Shown: positions 6,810 to 44,858 of the stretch, one piece after another | How positions within the stretch are numbered: the first letter of the stretch is position 1 | Layout of the letters: the number at the start of each line of letters is the position of its first letter | Assembly: GCF_014180685.1 (NCBI RefSeq) | Contig: NZ_JACEHF010000016.1 | Span: forward strand, 1 to 44,858 | Length of the DNA stretch: 44,858 bases | Direction: 5' to 3' | DNA from: Nocardioides pelophilus | Lineage (GTDB): Bacteria; Actinomycetota; Actinomycetes; Propionibacteriales; Nocardioidaceae | Made by a program: the position numbers and the translations under genes | The notes under the pieces: generated by a model | Seen by the model: the letters and a program-made list of their open reading frames with translations, nothing else | Databases searched by the model: none | Told to the model about the DNA's origin: nothing

Positions 6810-9722
6810 TCAACTGCAGCCGCTGGTGCTGCCGCAGCCCTCGCAGACGTAGCACGACCCAGCCGGGCGCATCTTGGTGCCGCAGGTCATGCAGAGCGGG
6901 CTGTCGACGGCGTGGCCGGTGATCTGCTCGAGAAGCTCGGCCGACGTACGGGCCTGGGGGGCGTCGGGGGCCTTGTCGGTGATGACGACCTCGTCGTCGG
7001 CTTCGTCCTTGGTCTCGTGACGGTCGCCAGGGCGACCTCCTCGACCAACGGAGTCGTCGATGAGCTCGGACGCGCTGCCGGTCTCCTCGATCGGCTCGTA
7101 GCTCCCCGTCTCGAGGTGGCGCTGGCGCTCCTCGGCGGAGAAGATGCCGAGGGCGGAGCGGGCCTCGAAGTCGAGGTAGTCGAGGGCCAGGCGGCGGAAG
7201 ATGTAGTCCATGATCGACTGGCTCATCCGGACGTCGGGGTCGTCGGTCAGGCCGGCGGGCTCGAAGCGCAGGTTGGTGAACTTCGAGACGTAGGTCTCCA
7301 GGGGCACGCCGTACTGAAGGCCGATGCTGACCGCGATCGAGAAGGCGTCCATCACGCCGGCCAGGGTCGAGCCCTGCTTGCCGAGCTTGAGGAAGATCTC
7401 GCCCAGCGAGCCGTCGTCGTGGGCACCCGAGGTCATGTAGCCCTCGGCGCCACCCACGGTGAACGACGTGGTGCGGGCCTGGCGCGACTTCGGGAGCCGC
7501 TTGCGGGTCGGCGCGTAGACAACCTTCTCGATGACCTTGGTCTCGAGGCTCGCTTCGCTCGCACCTCGACCAGCGGTCTCCGCGGCGTCGGCGGCGTCCT
7601 TCTTGGCCTTGCCGCCACCGTCGGACAGCGGCTGACCCACCTTGCAGTTGTCGCGGTAGATCGCGGTGGCCTTGAGGCCGAGCTTCCACGACTGCAGGTA
7701 GATGTCCTCGATCTCCTCGACCGTGGCCGACTCCGGCAGGTTGACCGTCTTCGAGATCGCACCGGAGAGGAACGGCTGGCAGGCAGCCATCATCTTCACG
7801 TGGCCCATCGGCTTGAGGGCCCGCTCACCCATCGCGGTGTCGAAGATCTCGTAGTGCTCCGGCTTCAGACCAGGCGCGTCGACCACGTGACCGTGCTCGG
7901 CGATGTAGGCGACGATCGCCTCCACCTTCTCCTCGTCGTAACCGAGCTTCTTCAGCGCCCGCGGGATCGTCTGGTTGACGATCTGCATCGAACCGCCACC
8001 GACGAGCTTCTTGAACTTGACCAGCGAGAAGTCCGGCTCGATGCCGGTCGTGTCGCAGTCCATCATGAAGCCGATGGTGCCGGTCGGCGCGAGCACCGAG
8101 GCCTGCGCGTTGCGGAAGCCGTTAACCTTACCGAGCTCGACGACCTGCGCCCACTCGTCGGTCGCCAGCCTGTGCACCTCGGCGTCGGCGATGTGCAGCG
8201 TGCGCACGGTGTCGTTGGCTGCCTGGTGCTTGCGCATCACCCGGTTGTGCGCCTCCGCGTTGCGGGCGTAGCCGGCGTAGGGGCCGACGATCGCGGCGAG
8301 CTCCGCCGAGCGACGGTACGACGTGCCGGTCATCAGGCTCGTGATGGTGGCCGCCATCGCGCGACCGCCGTCGGAGTCGTAGCCGAGACCCATCGCCATC
8401 AGCAGCGCGCCGAGGTTGGCGTAGCCGATGCCGAGCTGGCGGTAGTCGCGAGTGGTCTTGCCGATCGGCTCGGTCGGGAAGTCTGCGAAGCAGATCGAGA
8501 TGTCCATCGCGGTGATGATCAGCTCGACGGCCTTCGCGAAGAGCGGGGCGTCGAAGGTGTCGTCGTCCTTGAGGAACTTGAGCAGGTTGAGCGACGCCAG
8601 GTTGCAGGAGGAGTTGTCGAGCGACATGTACTCCGAGCACGGGTTGGACGCGGTGATCCGGCCCGTCTCCGGGTTGGTGTGCCAGTCGTTGATCGTGTCG
8701 TCGTACTGCAGACCGGGGTCGGCGCAGGCCCACGCGGCCTCGCTGATCTTGCGGAAGAGCGAGCGGGCGTCGACGGTCTCGATGACCTCGCCGGTCTTGC
8801 GGCCGCGCAGGCCGAACTCGGAGCCGTCCTCGACAGCACGCATGAACTCGTCGGTGACCCGGACGGAGTTGTTGGCGTTCTGGTACTGCACGGACGTGAT
8901 GTCCTTGCCGCCCAGGTCCATGTCGAAGCCGGCGTCACGCAGGGCGCGGATCTTGTCCTCCTCGCGCCACTTGGTCTCGACGAACTCCTCGATGTCGGGG
9001 TGGTCGACGTCGAGCACGACCATCTTCGCCGCCCGACGCGTCGCGCCGCCCGACTTGATGGTGCCGGCCGAGGCGTCGGCGCCGCGCATGAAGGAGACCG
9101 GGCCGGACGCCGTACCGCCGCTGCTCAGCAGCTCCTTGGACGAGCGGATGCGGGAGAGGTTGAGGCCGGCGCCGGAGCCGCCCTTGAAGATGAAGCCCTC
9201 TTCCTTGTACCAGTTCAGGATCGAGTCCATCGAGTCGTCGACGGACAGGATGAAGCAGGCCGAGACCTGCTGCGGCGACTTCGTGCCGACGTTGAACCAG
9301 ACCGGGGAGTTGAACGAGAAGTACTGGTGGACGAGCAGCCAGGTGAGCTCCTGCTCGAAGATGTCGGCGGCCTGCGGGCTCGCGAAGTAGCCGTGCTCGA
9401 TGCCGGCCTTGGTGTAGGTCTTCACGACCCGGTCGATGAGCTGCTTGAGACCCGTCTCGCGCTCGGGGGTGCCGACGGCGCCGCGGAAGTACTTCGTCGT
9501 GACGATGGTGCTCGCGTTGACCGACCAGAAGTCGGGGAACTCCACGCCGCGCTGCTCGAAGACCGTCTCACCGGTCTTCCAGTTCTGCTGGACGACGTCG
9601 CGTCGCTCCCAGGTGATCTCGTCGTACGGGTGCACGCCCTCGGTGCTGAACACCCGCTCGATGCCGAGACCCTTCGGCTCCGTGCTCGGGCTTCCGGCCT
9701 TGTTGCTCACCGTCTCGGTCAT
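6810..9722 (-). CDS. nrdJ: Adenosylcobalamin-dependent ribonucleotide reductase (class II)
   Basis: 970 aa from ATG 9722, with AGGAGA upstream. It reduces ribonucleotides to deoxyribonucleotides using adenosylcobalamin. Visible motifs: YFSFNSPVWFNVG, the redox cysteine in SACFIL, GGSGAGLNLS, the catalytic NPCSEYMSLDNSSCNLASLNL core, and a Cys-rich zinc-ribbon-like tail (CMTC...CYVCEGCG) that is probably the re-reduction tail. Length is normal for the actinobacterial form. Two palindromic repeats are embedded in frame: one encoding RGASEASLETK (7535-7576) in the linker before the VVYAPTRKRL segment, and one encoding RGGRPGDRHETK (7011-7052) in the acidic linker before the Cys tail. It lies 126 nt downstream of nrdR and is presumably repressed by it. 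Confidence 0.98.
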   Translation of the reverse strand: MTETVSNKAGSPSTEPKGLGIERVFSTEGVHPYDEITWERRDVVQQNWKTGETVFEQRGVEFPDFWSVNASTIVTTKYFRGAVGTPERETGLKQLIDRVVKTYTKAGIEHGYFASPQAADIFEQELTWLLVHQYFSFNSPVWFNVGTKSPQQVSACFILSVDDSMDSILNWYKEEGFIFKGGSGAGLNLSRIRSSKELLSSGGTASGPVSFMRGADASAGTIKSGGATRRAAKMVVLDVDHPDIEEFVETKWREEDKIRALRDAGFDMDLGGKDITSVQYQNANNSVRVTDEFMRAVEDGSEFGLRGRKTGEVIETVDARSLFRKISEAAWACADPGLQYDDTINDWHTNPETGRITASNPCSEYMSLDNSSCNLASLNLLKFLKDDDTFDAPLFAKAVELIITAMDISICFADFPTEPIGKTTRDYRQLGIGYANLGALLMAMGLGYDSDGGRAMAATITSLMTGTSYRRSAELAAIVGPYAGYARNAEAHNRVMRKHQAANDTVRTLHIADAEVHRLATDEWAQVVELGKVNGFRNAQASVLAPTGTIGFMMDCDTTGIEPDFSLVKFKKLVGGGSMQIVNQTIPRALKKLGYDEEKVEAIVAYIAEHGHVVDAPGLKPEHYEIFDTAMGERALKPMGHVKMMAACQPFLSGAISKTVNLPESATVEEIEDIYLQSWKLGLKATAIYRDNCKVGQPLSDGGGKAKKDAADAAETAGRGASEASLETKVIEKVVYAPTRKRLPKSRQARTTSFTVGGAEGYMTSGAHDDGSLGEIFLKLGKQGSTLAGVMDAFSIAVSIGLQYGVPLETYVSKFTNLRFEPAGLTDDPDVRMSQSIMDYIFRRLALDYLDFEARSALGIFSAEERQRHLETGSYEPIEETGSASELIDDSVGRGGRPGDRHETKDEADDEVVITDKAPDAPQARTSAELLEQITGHAVDSPLCMTCGTKMRPAGSCYVCEGCGSTSGCS
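7011..7052. repeat. Family-B palindromic repeat inside nrdJ
   Basis: The element starts GGTCTCGTGACGG and ends CTCGACCAACGG like the array copies at 13925-14239, but its inner stem is GGTCGCC-AG-GGCGACC instead of GGTCGC-TGC-GCGACC. It is 42 nt long, so it keeps the nrdJ frame, and it sits in a non-conserved acidic linker. Confidence 0.9.
7535..7576. repeat. Family-A palindromic repeat inside nrdJ
   Basis: A 42-nt copy of the element seen at 17406-17447, beginning CCTTGGTCTCGAGG and ending CCTCGACCAGCGG. Compared with the array copies, the outer stem has changed from GGTT/AACC to GGTC/GACC, a paired change that keeps base pairing. The length is a multiple of three and no stop is introduced. 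Confidence 0.9.
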
Positions 9723-11774: not shown

Positions 11775-11880
11775 GCGGGACGTCATACGCAAGTAGACCT
11801 ATCGGTGGCAGGGCGTACGACGTCCGGCGGGACGTCATACGTCAGTTGATCCATGGATGGGCGGCCGCATGACGTCCGCC
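11775..11880. repeat. Tandem long hairpins sharing GGGACGTCATACG
   Basis: This lies in the 300-nt gene-free stretch 11727-12026. Hairpin 1 pairs GGACGTCATACG (11778-11789) with CGTACGACGTCC (11814-11825), one mismatch. Hairpin 2 pairs GGCGGGACGTCAT (11826-11838) with ATGACGTCCGCC (11869-11880), one bulge. The two left arms are direct repeats, but the loops differ. Confidence 0.75.
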
Positions 11881-13173: not shown

Positions 13174-13925
13174 TTTCCGACCGGCGAACGGCCATGACGC
13201 TGGCCGGCGGAGCGTTGGCGGCACTAATCCAAGTCATACCTGCGCCTGCCGCGCGCGCCGGTCACTGCTATGAGGTGGAGCGAACTCGGATATCGCACGG
13301 GCAGGTCATCACGACGATCGTCCGCGTCTGTCCGGAGCACAGCGAGTCTGCCGAGCAAACAGCGGACGAGCAGAATGCCGCGCCACCAGTGGGGTCTGCC
13401 GCGTGCCTAGCCGCGGCGGCAGTGCTCGGCCTTCCGCCCGAAGACGTGTGCGGCGGTTCGACTGACGCCGCAGCACCCATAGTGACTGACGGAATGGTCG
13501 CGCGAGTGCTCCGCCGAATCGAACTGCCCGCTAGCAGTCTCCATGTCCAGCCGCCAGGTGGACGCACCCTCGTCAACTTCGAGACAAACTTCTTTACGAC
13601 GAACGACCAGCCGTTCACCCGAACAGTCCAGTTGCTCGGCCGGGCAGTCCAGCTTCGGATCTGGCCGACGAGCTACACGTGGCATTTCGGCGACGGAGAG
13701 TCAGTGACCACCGAGTCTCCGGGTGCCCGCTACCCCGATCTGGAGGTCACCCACAACTACCTCGAGAAGGGCGCGTACCGGCCCCGGGTGACAACCACCT
13801 ACACGGCCGAGTGGCGCGTCGAAAGCGGCCCGTGGAGGCCGGTGGCAGGCACCGCCAACATCGCCGGCGAACCCACCGACCTCAGGGCGATCGAGGCGAG
13901 GCCGACGTTGGTGGGCTACGAGTAG
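13170..13925 (+). CDS. Secreted PKD-domain protein
   Basis: 251 aa from GTG 13170, overlapping the previous stop by 4 nt. An N-terminal signal peptide (AMTLAGGALAALIQVIPAPAARA) precedes a Cys-containing region (HCYEVERTR...VRVCPEH, ACLAAAAVLGL, DVCGG). Residues ~165-235 hold a PKD-type beta-sandwich motif (YTWHFGDGESV, VTHNYLEKGAYRPRVTT). PKD domains mediate surface protein or polysaccharide contacts. Codon usage is less GC-rich than in neighbours. The stop codon TAG shares its last base with the first repeat of the following array. Confidence 0.85.
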   Translation: MISDRRTAMTLAGGALAALIQVIPAPAARAGHCYEVERTRISHGQVITTIVRVCPEHSESAEQTADEQNAAPPVGSAACLAAAAVLGLPPEDVCGGSTDAAAPIVTDGMVARVLRRIELPASSLHVQPPGGRTLVNFETNFFTTNDQPFTRTVQLLGRAVQLRIWPTSYTWHFGDGESVTTESPGARYPDLEVTHNYLEKGAYRPRVTTTYTAEWRVESGPWRPVAGTANIAGEPTDLRAIEARPTLVGYE

Positions 13926-14239
13926 GTCTCGTGACGGTCGCTGCGCGACCTCCTCGACCAACGGGCCTCCCGACTCCTCGACCCAACGGGTCTCGTGACG
14001 GTCGCTGCGCGACCTCCTCGACCAACGGGTCGCCAGACTCCTCGACCGCGCGACCTCGTCGACCAACGGGTCTCGTGACGGTCGCTGCGCGACCTCCTCG
14101 ACCAACGAGCAGGCTGCGCGACCTCCTCGACCAACGGGTCTCCAGACTCCTCGACCAACGGGTCTCGTGACGGTCGCTGCGCGACCTCCTCGACCAACGG
14201 GCCCCACGACGGTCGCTGCGCGACCTCCTCGACCGACAG
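13925..14239. repeat. Family-B palindromic repeat array (5-6 hairpin units)
   Basis: Near-identical 40-nt units start GGTCTCGTGACGG, contain the stem GGTCGC-TGC-GCGACC, and end CTCCTCGACCAACGG, at 13925, 13989, 14069 and 14161; degenerate units start at 14029 and 14201. They alternate with ~25-nt units lacking the inner stem (13965, 14137). The array fills the gap between the PKD gene stop and a terminator. It has no unique spacers, so it is not CRISPR. Confidence 0.92.
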
Positions 14240-15689: not shown

Positions 15690-15845
15690 GGTTTCGAGGC
15701 TCGCTTGGCTCGCACCTCAACCAGCGGCCACGCGCGCTTCGCTCGCACCTCAACCAGCGGCCAGGCGCGCTTGGCTCGCACCTCAACCAGCGGCCACGCG
15801 CGCTTCGCTCGCACCTCAACCAGCGGCCAGGCGCGCTTCGCTCTA
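15690..15845. repeat. Family-A repeat array, 33-nt units alternating as 66-nt pairs
   Basis: It opens with GGTTTCGAGGCTCGC and continues as 33-nt units ending CACCTCAACCAGCGG (15728-15826), then a partial unit. Units alternate between CCACGCGCGCTTCGC and CCAGGCGCGCTTGGC, giving a 66-nt higher-order period. The array runs from the lexA stop into the -10 box of the next gene. Confidence 0.92.
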
Positions 15846-17405: not shown

Positions 17406-17594
17406 CCTTGGTTTCGAGGCTCGCTTCGCTCGCACCTCAACCAGCGGCGGACACACCTCAACCAGCGGCGGACGCACCTCAACCAGCGGCGCTCGCACCT
17501 CAACCAGCGGCGCTCGCACCTCAACCAGCGGCGCTCGCACCTCAACCAGCGGCGGACGCACCTCAACCAGCGGCGCTCGCACCTCAACCAGCGG
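17406..17594. repeat. Family-A repeat array: one full unit plus seven 21-nt units
   Basis: A full 42-nt unit (CCTTGGTTTCGAGG ... CCTCAACCAGCGG, 17406-17447) is followed by seven 21-nt units (17448-17594), each ending CACCTCAACCAGCGG and beginning CGGAC or CGCTC. The 21-nt period is two helical turns. The array fills the gap between convergent stop codons at 17397 and 17608. Confidence 0.93.
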
Positions 17595-17607
17595 CGGCAG
17601 GCGTGTC

Positions 17608-29358: not shown

Positions 29359-30255
29359 CTACAGGCTGGTGGTGCCCGCCGCGACGAGGACGGCGGGTCC
29401 GGTCATGAGGATCCGGTCGTCGGCCGTCCAGCTGATCCGCAGCGTGCCGCCCGGGAGGTCGATCCGGTAGTCGGTGTCGCGGGGCGCTCGGTCGGCGAGG
29501 GCGGCGGCCACCATCACGGCGCAGGCACCGGTGCCGCACGAGCGGGTCTCGCCCGAGCCGCGCTCGTGCACCCGCATCGCGACGTGGCCCGGCCCCCGTC
29601 GTACGACGAACTCGACGTTGACCCCGTCCGGGTAGATCTCCTCGCGGTACGCCGGCGGGTCGGTCAGCGGACCGACGTCGGCCAGGTCCTCGACGAACGC
29701 CACCGCGTGCGGGTTGCCCATGCCGACGTGGAGGGCGGTCCACTCCCGCTCGATCCCGGCGACCTCGACCCAGACCTCGGTCTCCTCCAGCACCTTCGGC
29801 GAACCCATGTCGACGGTGATCTCGCCCTCGGCCACGCCGCCGGCGAAGGTCAGGGTCTTCACGCCGTCGCGGCTGCCGATCGGCACCGGACCGGTCGGAT
29901 CGACGAGCCCCTCGAGCGCGAGGTGGCGCGCGAACACCCGGATCCCGTTGCCGCACATCTCCGAGAGCGACCCGTCGGCGTTGCGGTAGTCCATGAACCA
30001 CTCGGCCTGCTGACCCCGACCCGCGTCGATGGCGGCGGTCCGGATCACCCGCAGCACGCCGTCGCCGCCGATCCCGGCCCGGCGGTCGCACAGCGCGCGC
30101 ACCCGCTCGGCGCCGAGCTCGCCGTGCACCGTGCCGTCGTGGTCGGGCAGCAGCACGAAGTCGTTCTGCGTGCCGTGCCCCTTGAGGAAGGCGTACGGGT
30201 CTCGTGACGGTCGCTGCGCGACCTCCTCGACCGACGAGGTCTCAGCGCTGCTCAT
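29359..30255 (-). CDS. dapF: Diaminopimelate epimerase, N-terminus rewritten by a repeat
   Basis: 298 aa from ATG 30255, the only usable start. It converts LL- to meso-diaminopimelate for lysine and peptidoglycan. Both catalytic cysteines are present (MCGNGIRVFARH and RSCGTGACAVMV), as is GNPHAVAFV. Family members normally begin just before the F-x-K-G-H-G-T-Q-N-D-F motif; here residues MSSAETSSVEEVAQRPSRDP precede it, and SSVEEVAQRPSRDP is encoded by a family-B repeat. The start overlaps the upstream PPOX gene end by 14 nt, implying translational coupling created or kept by the insertion. Confidence 0.96.
   Translation of the reverse strand: MSSAETSSVEEVAQRPSRDPYAFLKGHGTQNDFVLLPDHDGTVHGELGAERVRALCDRRAGIGGDGVLRVIRTAAIDAGRGQQAEWFMDYRNADGSLSEMCGNGIRVFARHLALEGLVDPTGPVPIGSRDGVKTLTFAGGVAEGEITVDMGSPKVLEETEVWVEVAGIEREWTALHVGMGNPHAVAFVEDLADVGPLTDPPAYREEIYPDGVNVEFVVRRGPGHVAMRVHERGSGETRSCGTGACAVMVAAALADRAPRDTDYRIDLPGGTLRISWTADDRILMTGPAVLVAAGTTSL
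30198..30238. repeat. Family-B palindromic repeat forming the dapF N-terminus
   Basis: GGTCTCGTGACGG, then stem GGTCGC-TGC-GCGACC, then CTCCTCGACCGACG. It lies between the dapF start codon (30255) and the first conserved codons. Confidence 0.92.
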
Positions 30256-30897: not shown

Positions 30898-31118
30898 CCT
30901 TGGTTTCGAGGCTCCTCGCTGCGCTCGTCGCACCTCAACCAGCGGCGGCACACCGACGGTTCGCATGGACCCCGCCGCTGGTTGAGGTGCGAGCGCAAGC
31001 ACAGCCCGCCGCTGGTTGAGGTGCGAGCGCAAGCACAGCCCGCCGCTGGTTGAGGTGCGAGCGCACCGCAGCCCCGCCGCTGGTTGAGGTGCGAGCGCAG
31101 CGAGCCTCGAAACCAAGG
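30898..31118. repeat. 221-nt composite palindromic element, family A, inverted ends
   Basis: It starts CCTTGGTTTCGAGGCTC (30898) and ends with the reverse complement GAGCCTCGAAACCAAGG (31118). The left part is one unit; the right part is four units in the opposite orientation (each starting CCGCTGGTTGAGGTGCGAGC), two of them followed by GCAAGCACAGCC. The element lies between the DHFR-like stop (31122) and the PPOX promoter. Confidence 0.93.
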
Positions 31119-32656: not shown

Positions 32657-32749
32657 CCGTTGGTCGAGGAGGTTGCGCAGCAGCCGTCACGAGACCTGCG
32701 GCGGAAACGGGTCTCGTGACGCTCGCCAGAGCGAGCTCCTCGACCTACG
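32657..32749. repeat. Facing pair of family-B repeats; one supplies the miaA stop
   Basis: Copy 1 (32657-32696, minus orientation) has CCGTTGGTCGAGGAGG and ends GAGACC. Copy 2 (32710-32749, plus) starts GGTCTCGTGACGCTCGC and has inner stem GCTCGC-CAGA-GCGAGC, a paired change from GGTCGC/GCGACC. In copy 2, CTCGACC is followed by TACGAG; on the minus strand this gives the miaA stop TAG (32747-32745). Confidence 0.9.
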
Positions 32750-36172: not shown

Positions 36173-36215
36173 CTGTCGATCCTGCCACCCGGGGGCCGCG
36201 CAGCGCTCCTGCATG

Positions 36216-36390
36216 CTGTCAAGCAGGGCAGCGTGCCTGCTTGACGTCCTGCAGGCTGCTGCCGCCTGGCGGACCCTGCGTGCTGTCAAGCAGGACACCT
36301 TGGCTGCTTGACGTCCTGCAGGCTGCCGCCTGGGCGGGGCCCCTGCGCGCTGTCAAGCAGGACACCCTGGCTGCTTGACGTCCTGCAAGG
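36216..36390. repeat. Tandem hairpin repeat, 67-nt period, three units
   Basis: CTGTCAAGCAGG begins units at 36216, 36283 and 36350. In each unit, GTCAAGCAG pairs with CTGCTTGAC (9 bp) about 10 nt later, followed by GTCCTGCA, which can alternatively pair with GCAGGAC in the left arm of units 2 and 3. It fills most of the 275-nt gap between the peptidase start and the TetR stop. Confidence 0.88.
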
Positions 36391-44429: not shown

Positions 44430-44858
44430 TCACGTCGACGCCTTCTTCGCCACCGCGAAGATCCGGCGGAACGGCAGCACGACGCCGCGGCCGTCGTCGG
44501 GGTAGGCCGCGCGCAGCCGGCGCTTGAACTCCGCCTCGAACCGAGGGCGCAGGTCGTCGGGCAGCGCCTGCAGGGTCGGGCGCGCACCGGTTGCGGACAC
44601 CCAGGCGAACACGGGGTCCTCGCCGTGGAGCACGTGGAGGTACGTCGTCTCCCACGCGTCCACCTCGCAGCCGAGGTCCTGGAGCACGCGGAGGTAGGTG
44701 GCCGCGTCGTACGACGAAGGCACGGCGACGCCACCCCCGGTGGTCGAGGAGGTCGCCCTGGCGACCGTCTCGAGACCCCCGGCGTACGGCTCCTCGGCAC
44801 CCCCGGTGGTCGAGGAGGTCGCCCTGGCGACCGTCTCGAGACCCCCGGCGTACGGCTC
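44430..44858 (-). CDS. tam: Trans-aconitate 2-methyltransferase, C-terminal part, with in-frame repeats
   Basis: Partial: the 5' end lies beyond the window. SSYDAATYLRVLQDLGCEVDAWETTYLHVLHGEDPVFAWV and LRAAYPDDGRGVVLPFRRIFAVAK (in part) match the C-terminus of Tam, which methylates trans-aconitate with SAM. The frame stays open through two family-B repeats (44733-44858), giving two copies of EPYAGGLETVARATSSTTGG-like peptide, so the start at GTG 44723 is not the true one. The 66-nt repeat period is 22 codons. Alternatively the upstream part could be lost, leaving a pseudogene; the neighbouring sequence would tell. Confidence 0.85.
   Translation of the reverse strand, partial: EPYAGGLETVARATSSTTGGAEEPYAGGLETVARATSSTTGGGVAVPSSYDAATYLRVLQDLGCEVDAWETTYLHVLHGEDPVFAWVSATGARPTLQALPDDLRPRFEAEFKRRLRAAYPDDGRGVVLPFRRIFAVAKKAST
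44733..44858. repeat. Two tandem 66-nt units carrying family-B repeats inside tam
   Basis: Units start at 44733 and 44799; each contains GGTCTCGAGACGG (minus strand), stem GGTCGCC-AG-GGCGACC, CTCCTCGACCACC and a spacer encoding EPYA. The second unit runs to the window edge, so more copies may follow. Confidence 0.92.

Follow-up and report, generated by a model that had tools for sequence, protein, structure and literature searches.

The window, which is the whole 44,858-nt contig C68 of the soil bacterium Nocardioides pelophilus (genome G000; 343 contigs, 4,639,066 bases), ends at position 44858 inside tam, the gene of trans-aconitate 2-methyltransferase, and this last stretch of the contig carries a perfect tandem array (Table 1). 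Tandem Repeats Finder reported the array at 44732-44858 with a period of 66 nt, 1.9 copies, 100% matches and a score of 254, which bears out an earlier note, made from the letters alone, that had described a 66-nt, 22-codon tandem repeat in frame in tam. That note had placed two units from 44733 onwards; the array begins at 44732 instead, and its second unit is present for only 61 of the 66 nt. The coding strand of the array is the minus strand, each unit encodes the peptide GGLETVARATSSTTGGAEEPYA, and between the stop codon at 44430 and the contig end at 44858 the frame stays open, as had been claimed. Three readings of the window's tam end gave no family in Pfam.

Table 1. Features of the tam locus and related repeats of N. 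pelophilus. Positions refer to the window unless a contig or locus is named.
Feature	Position	Strand	Basis or remark
3' part of tam (trans-aconitate 2-methyltransferase)	44430..44858	-	open to contig end; homologues aligned
5' part of tam	contig C89, L002:128-577	-	continues frame of 44430..44858
Perfect tandem array, 66 nt = 22 codons	44732..44858	.	cut by contig end
Element copy 1, family F1, CCTG-loop/CTCGAG-arm variant	44738..44778	+	profile match; hairpin
Element copy 2, family F1	44804..44844	+	profile match
18 nt of native tam inside the repeat unit, coding AEEPYA	44781..44798	-	native in homologues
Second native 18-nt copy, beginning only, remainder on C89	44847..44858	-	sequence
F1 copy in nrdJ (class II ribonucleotide reductase), near C-terminus, peptide VGRGGRPGDRHET	7011..7051	-	profile; Pfam
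F1 copy in dapF (diaminopimelate epimerase), N-terminal end, peptide VEEVAQRPSRDP	30197..30236	-	profile match
F1 cluster, not called intragenic	13925..14236	-	profile match
Inverted F1 pair	32657..32749	.	profile match
Second palindrome family, CGCTGGTTGAGGTGCGAGCGCAGCGAGCCTCGAAACCA, full and half copies in tandem	15690-15825, 17409-17596, 30901-31115
Mutase-gene array, 4 x 54 nt	L123:1986-2187 (G000:C223)		second in-gene tandem array

The gene continues on the next contig, C89 (L002), which overlaps the window by 121 nt, starts within the same array, finishes the second unit and carries tam on to a GTG start at L002:577 on the minus strand. A stop or frameshift just beyond the window would have marked a decaying pseudogene in the eyes of the earlier note; none occurs in C89, and this reading is therefore set aside. 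The N-terminal half of Tam together with the array, a partial protein, scored 211 bits against the trans-aconitate 2-methyltransferase model NF010703, whose cut-off is 320. Measured from the array boundary, the perfect period spans exactly 127 nt on C68 and again on C89. The maximum k-mer of SPAdes is 127, and a graph built with k = 127 would pass unbroken through an array of two units (133 nt); therefore the array should have at least three units, provided that the assembly is a de Bruijn assembly with k = 127. Since no other pair among the 30 contig ends compared overlapped, this argument is drawn from a single junction. With 272 residues at one unit and 22 for each further one, the Tam protein would then be at least 316 residues long. 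The array is real and in frame, and it looks recent. A second strain of the species was not found, and the nearest tam is 83% identical.

In order to see what the unit is made of, we compared tam with its homologues. The search matched 103 of the 118 genomes of the genus, and 30 of those loci were aligned; the comparison of the site covered 110 loci, some species being represented twice, of which L112 was excluded as it ends at the insertion site. The genus homologues usually read ...AEEPYAAHTAGVAVPSS... at this site, and the N. pelophilus protein reads ...AEEPYA, GGLETVARATSSTTGG, GVAVPSS.... The insert is absent from all 109 comparable loci, none of which has more than 3 extra residues at the site. 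In the native homologue DNA an AEEPYA-like segment lies on one side and GVA or GAA on the other, and one element copy stands in place of about 4 native codons, a net gain of 12 residues in Tam. The 66-nt unit thus consists of 18 nt of native tam and 48 nt that contain a 40-nt palindromic element. Since the native 18 nt lie inside the unit, the expansion duplicated host DNA together with the element; in kind, this mechanism of amplification is an ordinary one. Neither the native part of the unit nor the family tie to DUF222-HNH genes described below figures in the earlier note. A structure model of the Tam of a relative (L039, 258 residues), built on 28 sequences with a mean pLDDT of 92.1, puts the insertion site at a short helix spanning residues 154-157 and at the beginning of ten residues that form neither helix nor strand; the next helix runs from 168 to 176. 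This fits a tolerant loop, the tolerance being a prediction from the model. In G101, another genome of the genus, tam likewise lies in two contigs (G101:C172:3-431 and G101:C86:6-506), parted close to the equivalent position (residue 146).

The element belongs to a family, here F1, that is present throughout the genome. From 194 matches in 349,449 nt of N. pelophilus DNA we built a profile, whose 40-nt consensus is CGGTGGTCGAGGAGGTCGCGCAGCGACCGTCACGAGACCC. The genome contains its left arm, TGGTCGAGGAGNNNGC, 356 times, compared with 9 for the pattern read backwards. The same arm was counted 184 times in G033, 134 in G056, 96 in G043, 94 in G035, 68 in G029, 53 in G078 and 40 each in G100 and G012, and most of the 118 genus genomes have roughly 5-25 copies. 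Among 147 genomes of the order, 21 contained a longer pattern; 17 of these belong to this genus, two genomes of a related genus, g10, have 77 and 4 copies, and two others have 1 copy each. With constant outer arms, the element varies in its central stem, where changes are compensated: GGTCG/CGACC, GGTTG/CAACC, GGGAC/GTCCC, GGCCG/CGGCC, GCTTG/CAAGC, AGTCG/CGACT and GCTCG/CGAGC. Pairing of at least 5 bp was possible in 26 of 33 distinct cores, and 1000 rounds of shuffled arms gave a mean of 8.7 and a maximum of 15. When folded as single-stranded DNA, the tam copy reached -12.4 kcal/mol (z -2.2; 3 of 200 shuffles folded as well), in agreement with the hairpin that had been reported, and the z values were -1.5 for the consensus and -0.3 for a second palindrome family.

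The earlier note had also proposed that the element is stop-free in several frames, a property that would favour life inside genes. The first half of this proposal stands: the element is read in at least four ways on both strands (GRGGRPGDRHET, VEEVAQRPSRDP, LETVARATSSTTGG and GSRDGRRATSSTND), and the tam peptide does differ in strand and frame from the nrdJ and dapF copies. The special property does not. None of the six frames of the 42-nt tam element contains a stop, which is equally true of 36% of random 42-nt windows of the genome; the family consensus has a TGA in one frame and is open in the other five. Across two units (132 nt) all six frames are open, compared with 4.6% of random windows of that length; because the second unit copies the first, this is no independent evidence. 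A special stop-free design is not supported, the openness going little beyond composition.

Copies inside genes are not confined to tam. Of the 61 F1 clusters in the stretches of the genome examined, 14 were flagged as lying inside open coding frames, in a biased sample of regions partly chosen by similarity to the tam array. Nine of the 14, in eight genes, were checked by Pfam (five were left out), and a Pfam family was found in all eight genes. Besides tam, at least seven genes carry the copy inside a Pfam domain, between two of them, or close to the far end. A fusion of MeaB and methylmalonyl-CoA mutase contains four in-frame copies with a period of 54 nt (18 codons) between both domains, and recN contains one copy and two half copies. 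In-frame copies also occur in genes for an ABC transporter and a carboxyltransferase, in purC and in cobN. An SNF2 helicase has a copy at its N-terminal end, which is intragenic only given an upstream start, and the copy in dapF is intragenic only if the start is the ATG eight codons upstream. The nrdJ gene also has an in-frame insertion of the second family at window positions 7538-7575, and thus holds one copy of each family.

The two in-gene arrays have periods divisible by three, 66 nt in tam and 54 nt in the mutase gene, the arrays being too few for a test; among those not called intragenic, periods such as 62, 59, 55, 71 and 91-93 nt occur, as do some multiples of three. We examined the spacers of seven arrays, including that of tam, which offers one spacer in the window. 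Spacer similarity within an array was 0.93-0.97 in four arrays, and 0.79 and 0.71 in two, and the first spacers of different arrays were similar to each other at 0.30-0.63. Since spacers are alike within an array and unlike between arrays, tandem duplication of the element with adjacent DNA looks like a habit of the family, as far as spacer sequences can tell. The second palindrome family has the form GGTTGAGG...CCTCGAAACC.

We then examined what lies next to the F1 clusters. In N. pelophilus, clusters flank open reading frames that Pfam assigns to DUF222. DUF222 occurs at 14 places (15 rows), and 10 of these have copies within about 1 kb; at those 10, all left copies are on the plus strand and all right copies on the minus strand. 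Two of the four copy-free places begin at a contig start, with the upstream side cut off; L189 (G000:C53) and L191 (G000:C336) are DUF222 genes at contig starts, as if 5' arrays had broken the assembly. When 67 DUF222 places in six genomes, five of them picked for abundant element, were taken together, 118 of the 119 copies within 1.5 kb were oriented toward the gene (5' side, 93 toward and 0 away; 3' side, 25 toward and 1 away). Counted by occupied side (27 five-prime and 9 three-prime), 35 of 36 were oriented toward the gene. Any copy at all was present at 31 of the 67 places, and at none of the seven in G043. As controls, 15 stretches from hand-chosen places, 297,001 nt in all, contained 10 copies. 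A looser motif gave a similar picture over 115 listed DUF222 places, with 127 copies toward the gene, 7 away and any copy at 43 places. These are 114 distinct places, as L167 duplicates L249 and one toward-copy is counted twice; excluded beforehand were L328 and L337, which lie at runs of N, L166 and L184, whose contigs are clipped, and the duplicates L174, L176 and L179. The looser motif occurred 15 times in the same 297,001 nt of controls, 4 times in 612,773 nt of tam loci and not at all in 140,000 nt of shuffled sequence. In G026, a different core was present at all six places examined of 18, and 14 of 14 copies pointed toward the gene. The repeat that the earlier note had found in tam belongs to a family whose copies keep a fixed orientation to a gene for an HNH-type endonuclease. 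Seven other DUF222 genes of N. pelophilus have the second family on their 5' side, oriented toward the gene; across the six genomes it is less strict than F1, with 12 copies toward the gene and 5 away.

This relation is not a rule of the genus. In element-rich G043, G029, G078 and G100 there was no copy at the 7 of 7, 1 of 1, 2 of 2 and 5 of 9 DUF222 places examined, and G012, with its 40 left arms, had a copy at one of six examined (of 8); five of nine places were examined in G094. Among the 30 best-scoring DUF222 loci of other species, the N. pelophilus type of element occurred at one, and repeats were no commoner round DUF222 loci than round tam (mean 40 and 48 nt, respectively). Based on these two results, we rejected the association as a genus-wide rule. 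We also considered whether the number of elements follows the number of DUF222 genes, and no correlation was seen on reading both tables by eye. A replication-strand bias of the element, suspected at first in G056, was likewise rejected, orientations being mixed among those listed of the 118 places.

The DUF222 genes are parts of repeated units. Among ten unit proteins scanned by Pfam, DUF222 was detected in ten, HNH in two and a transposase domain in none. Two classes are present in N. pelophilus: against the DUF222 cut-off of 24.4 bits, four class A proteins scored 37-50 bits and two class B proteins 88 and 102 bits, and the proteins of G056 scored 22-25 bits, mostly below the cut-off (22.0-24.1 in the four scanned). 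For HNH (PF01844, cut-off 21.4), the class B proteins L198 and L190 reached 23.3 and 21.3 bits, the latter just below the cut-off, and no HNH match was obtained in the four class A and four G056 proteins. In these eight we read by eye a pattern that we take to be H-N-H. In four class A genes of N. pelophilus the block of similarity begins at an element and ends at an inverted element, and six class B units have a copy at the 5' end only. Eight units of G056 are 82-92% identical, and seven have a palindrome copy at the start (six of the first family, L247 of the second, and none in L246). They end just beyond the gene, with a 3' palindrome in none of the eight. The dN/dS values were 0.16 for G056 (417 codons) and 0.30 for class A (450 codons), so the unit proteins have been kept by selection. 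Synonymous change in the last 42 codons of the G056 genes was 0.11-0.15, compared with 0.43 overall, the lowest along the gene (L241-L248), as if the 3' end of this DUF222-type gene doubled as a DNA or RNA signal, to judge from codon comparison. When we searched for an empty site with the joined flanks of two G056 units in 38 other genomes, none was found. Viral contigs gave no match. Four plasmid records contain a related protein, one of them, from Georgenia, over most of the query at 50% identity. A search of solved structures with a DUF222-HNH protein gave one match, at chance level (E 0.12).

Several known systems resemble F1 in part. The REP/RAYT system, as presented in the available part of PMC3733652, has high-copy palindromes of 20-40 nt beside one gene family, some of them intragenic. 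F1 differs from it in three points. First, there is no GTAG at the ends of its consensus. Second, its partner gene is DUF222-HNH; the Y1 transposase (PF01797) had no match in the N. pelophilus genome, the only one concerned here, with positive controls in 5 of 14. Third, F1 clusters are mostly head-to-tail with array-specific spacers. The same part of PMC3733652 describes CGTC repeats and Rickettsia palindromic elements (RPE), palindromes which, like F1, are able to reside inside protein genes; the former lack a dedicated transposase and the latter end in CGTC. In F1, a CGTC follows the central stem, and the outer arms pair beyond it. F1 also differs from both in its occurrence in Nocardioides, in the gene family alongside in fixed orientation and in its in-gene tandem arrays. 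Alike in gene content is REP13E12, the 13E12 family of mycobacteria, a repeated sequence with a DUF222-HNH gene; REP13E12/HNH/DUF222 is a category of repetitive element in PMC10589994, citing Gordon et al. 1999. Palindromic ends and dispersed solo ends are not mentioned in the available part of that source, and this comparison is by description only. Finally, the four class A units, with inverted element ends round one open reading frame, recall an insertion sequence or MITE with terminal inverted repeats, but the ten unit proteins scanned carry DUF222, two of them (class B) also HNH, and no transposase domain. In the open-licence literature, we found no paper on the F1 element or on DUF222-HNH genes tied to palindromic repeats.

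Based on these observations, we lean towards the following explanation. The 66-nt unit would be a stem-loop plus tam DNA, the family would represent the ends of a DUF222-HNH unit, and solo copies would have been spread by the nuclease and then amplified. A 40-nt stem-loop element would have inserted into tam, and the same family forms one end or both ends of a single-gene unit of about 1.5 kb coding for a DUF222-HNH endonuclease. Solo copies would most likely be non-autonomous derivatives of a unit end, spread by the HNH nuclease acting on the hairpin. The inserted element with some neighbouring host DNA may then be amplified in tandem by slippage or by break repair at the hairpin, either route being conjectural, and in coding sequence insertions would persist only if their length is divisible by three and they fall in tolerant loops. 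F1 would accordingly be a repeat of the REP kind with an HNH nuclease as its partner. More tentatively, we suggest a REP-like system of Nocardioides that is driven by DUF222 HNH proteins, in which the nuclease would recognise the stem-loop at its own end, solo copies would settle in frame in housekeeping genes, and local amplification with host DNA would yield loops of Ser, Thr and Gly.

The strongest competitor, though we judge it rather unlikely, is that the element is only a landing site, the nuclease gene homing beside older palindromes that had been spread otherwise, by a lost RAYT or by replication errors. It would account for the four element-rich genomes that lack a copy beside the DUF222 places examined, and for the eight G056 units, none of which has a 3' palindrome and one of which has a palindrome of the second family at its 5' end. 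However, a unit inserted into a head-to-tail array would be flanked by direct copies, while the four class A units have inverted ones, and in G056 one copy belongs to the conserved unit. We regard it as improbable that the arrays are regulatory sites of the DUF222-HNH genes, acting in transcription or as RNA hairpins, with dispersed copies of other origin. Such sites would be expected where most copies do lie, on the 5' side (93 of 119), but the 3' copies are inverted so that 25 of 26 also point toward the gene, and hundreds of copies lie elsewhere, some in unrelated genes. Still less credible is an ordinary slippage VNTR unconnected with mobile DNA: both tam units have the same sequence and the native spacer is repeated as well, as slippage would have it, but slippage accounts for the repetition and not for the arrival of the element, whose sequence is a genome-wide family and is found at none of the 109 homologous sites. 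Least of all do we believe in an assembly artefact, despite the position at a contig edge in a 343-contig assembly, since C68 and C89 both bear the array, flanked by the proper parts of tam, and show exactly the 127-nt signature that a real tandem loop should leave, which is seen at this junction alone.

How in-gene palindromic repeats spread without a transposase is an open question, the CGTC repeats having no dedicated enzyme according to the part of PMC3733652 available. With a candidate partner gene in fixed orientation this question can be tested, and the DUF222-HNH proteins gain a candidate function. The tam case in turn suggests a route by which enzymes may acquire repeated peptide loops. 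Membership in an in-gene family with an oriented HNH-type gene also lifts the tam array above a VNTR.

Two further tandem repeats were observed in the window. A 67-nt repeat at 36208-36387 is present in 2.7 copies and by eye is unrelated to the element, and a 52-nt repeat at 11775-11878 is present in two copies with 76% matches.
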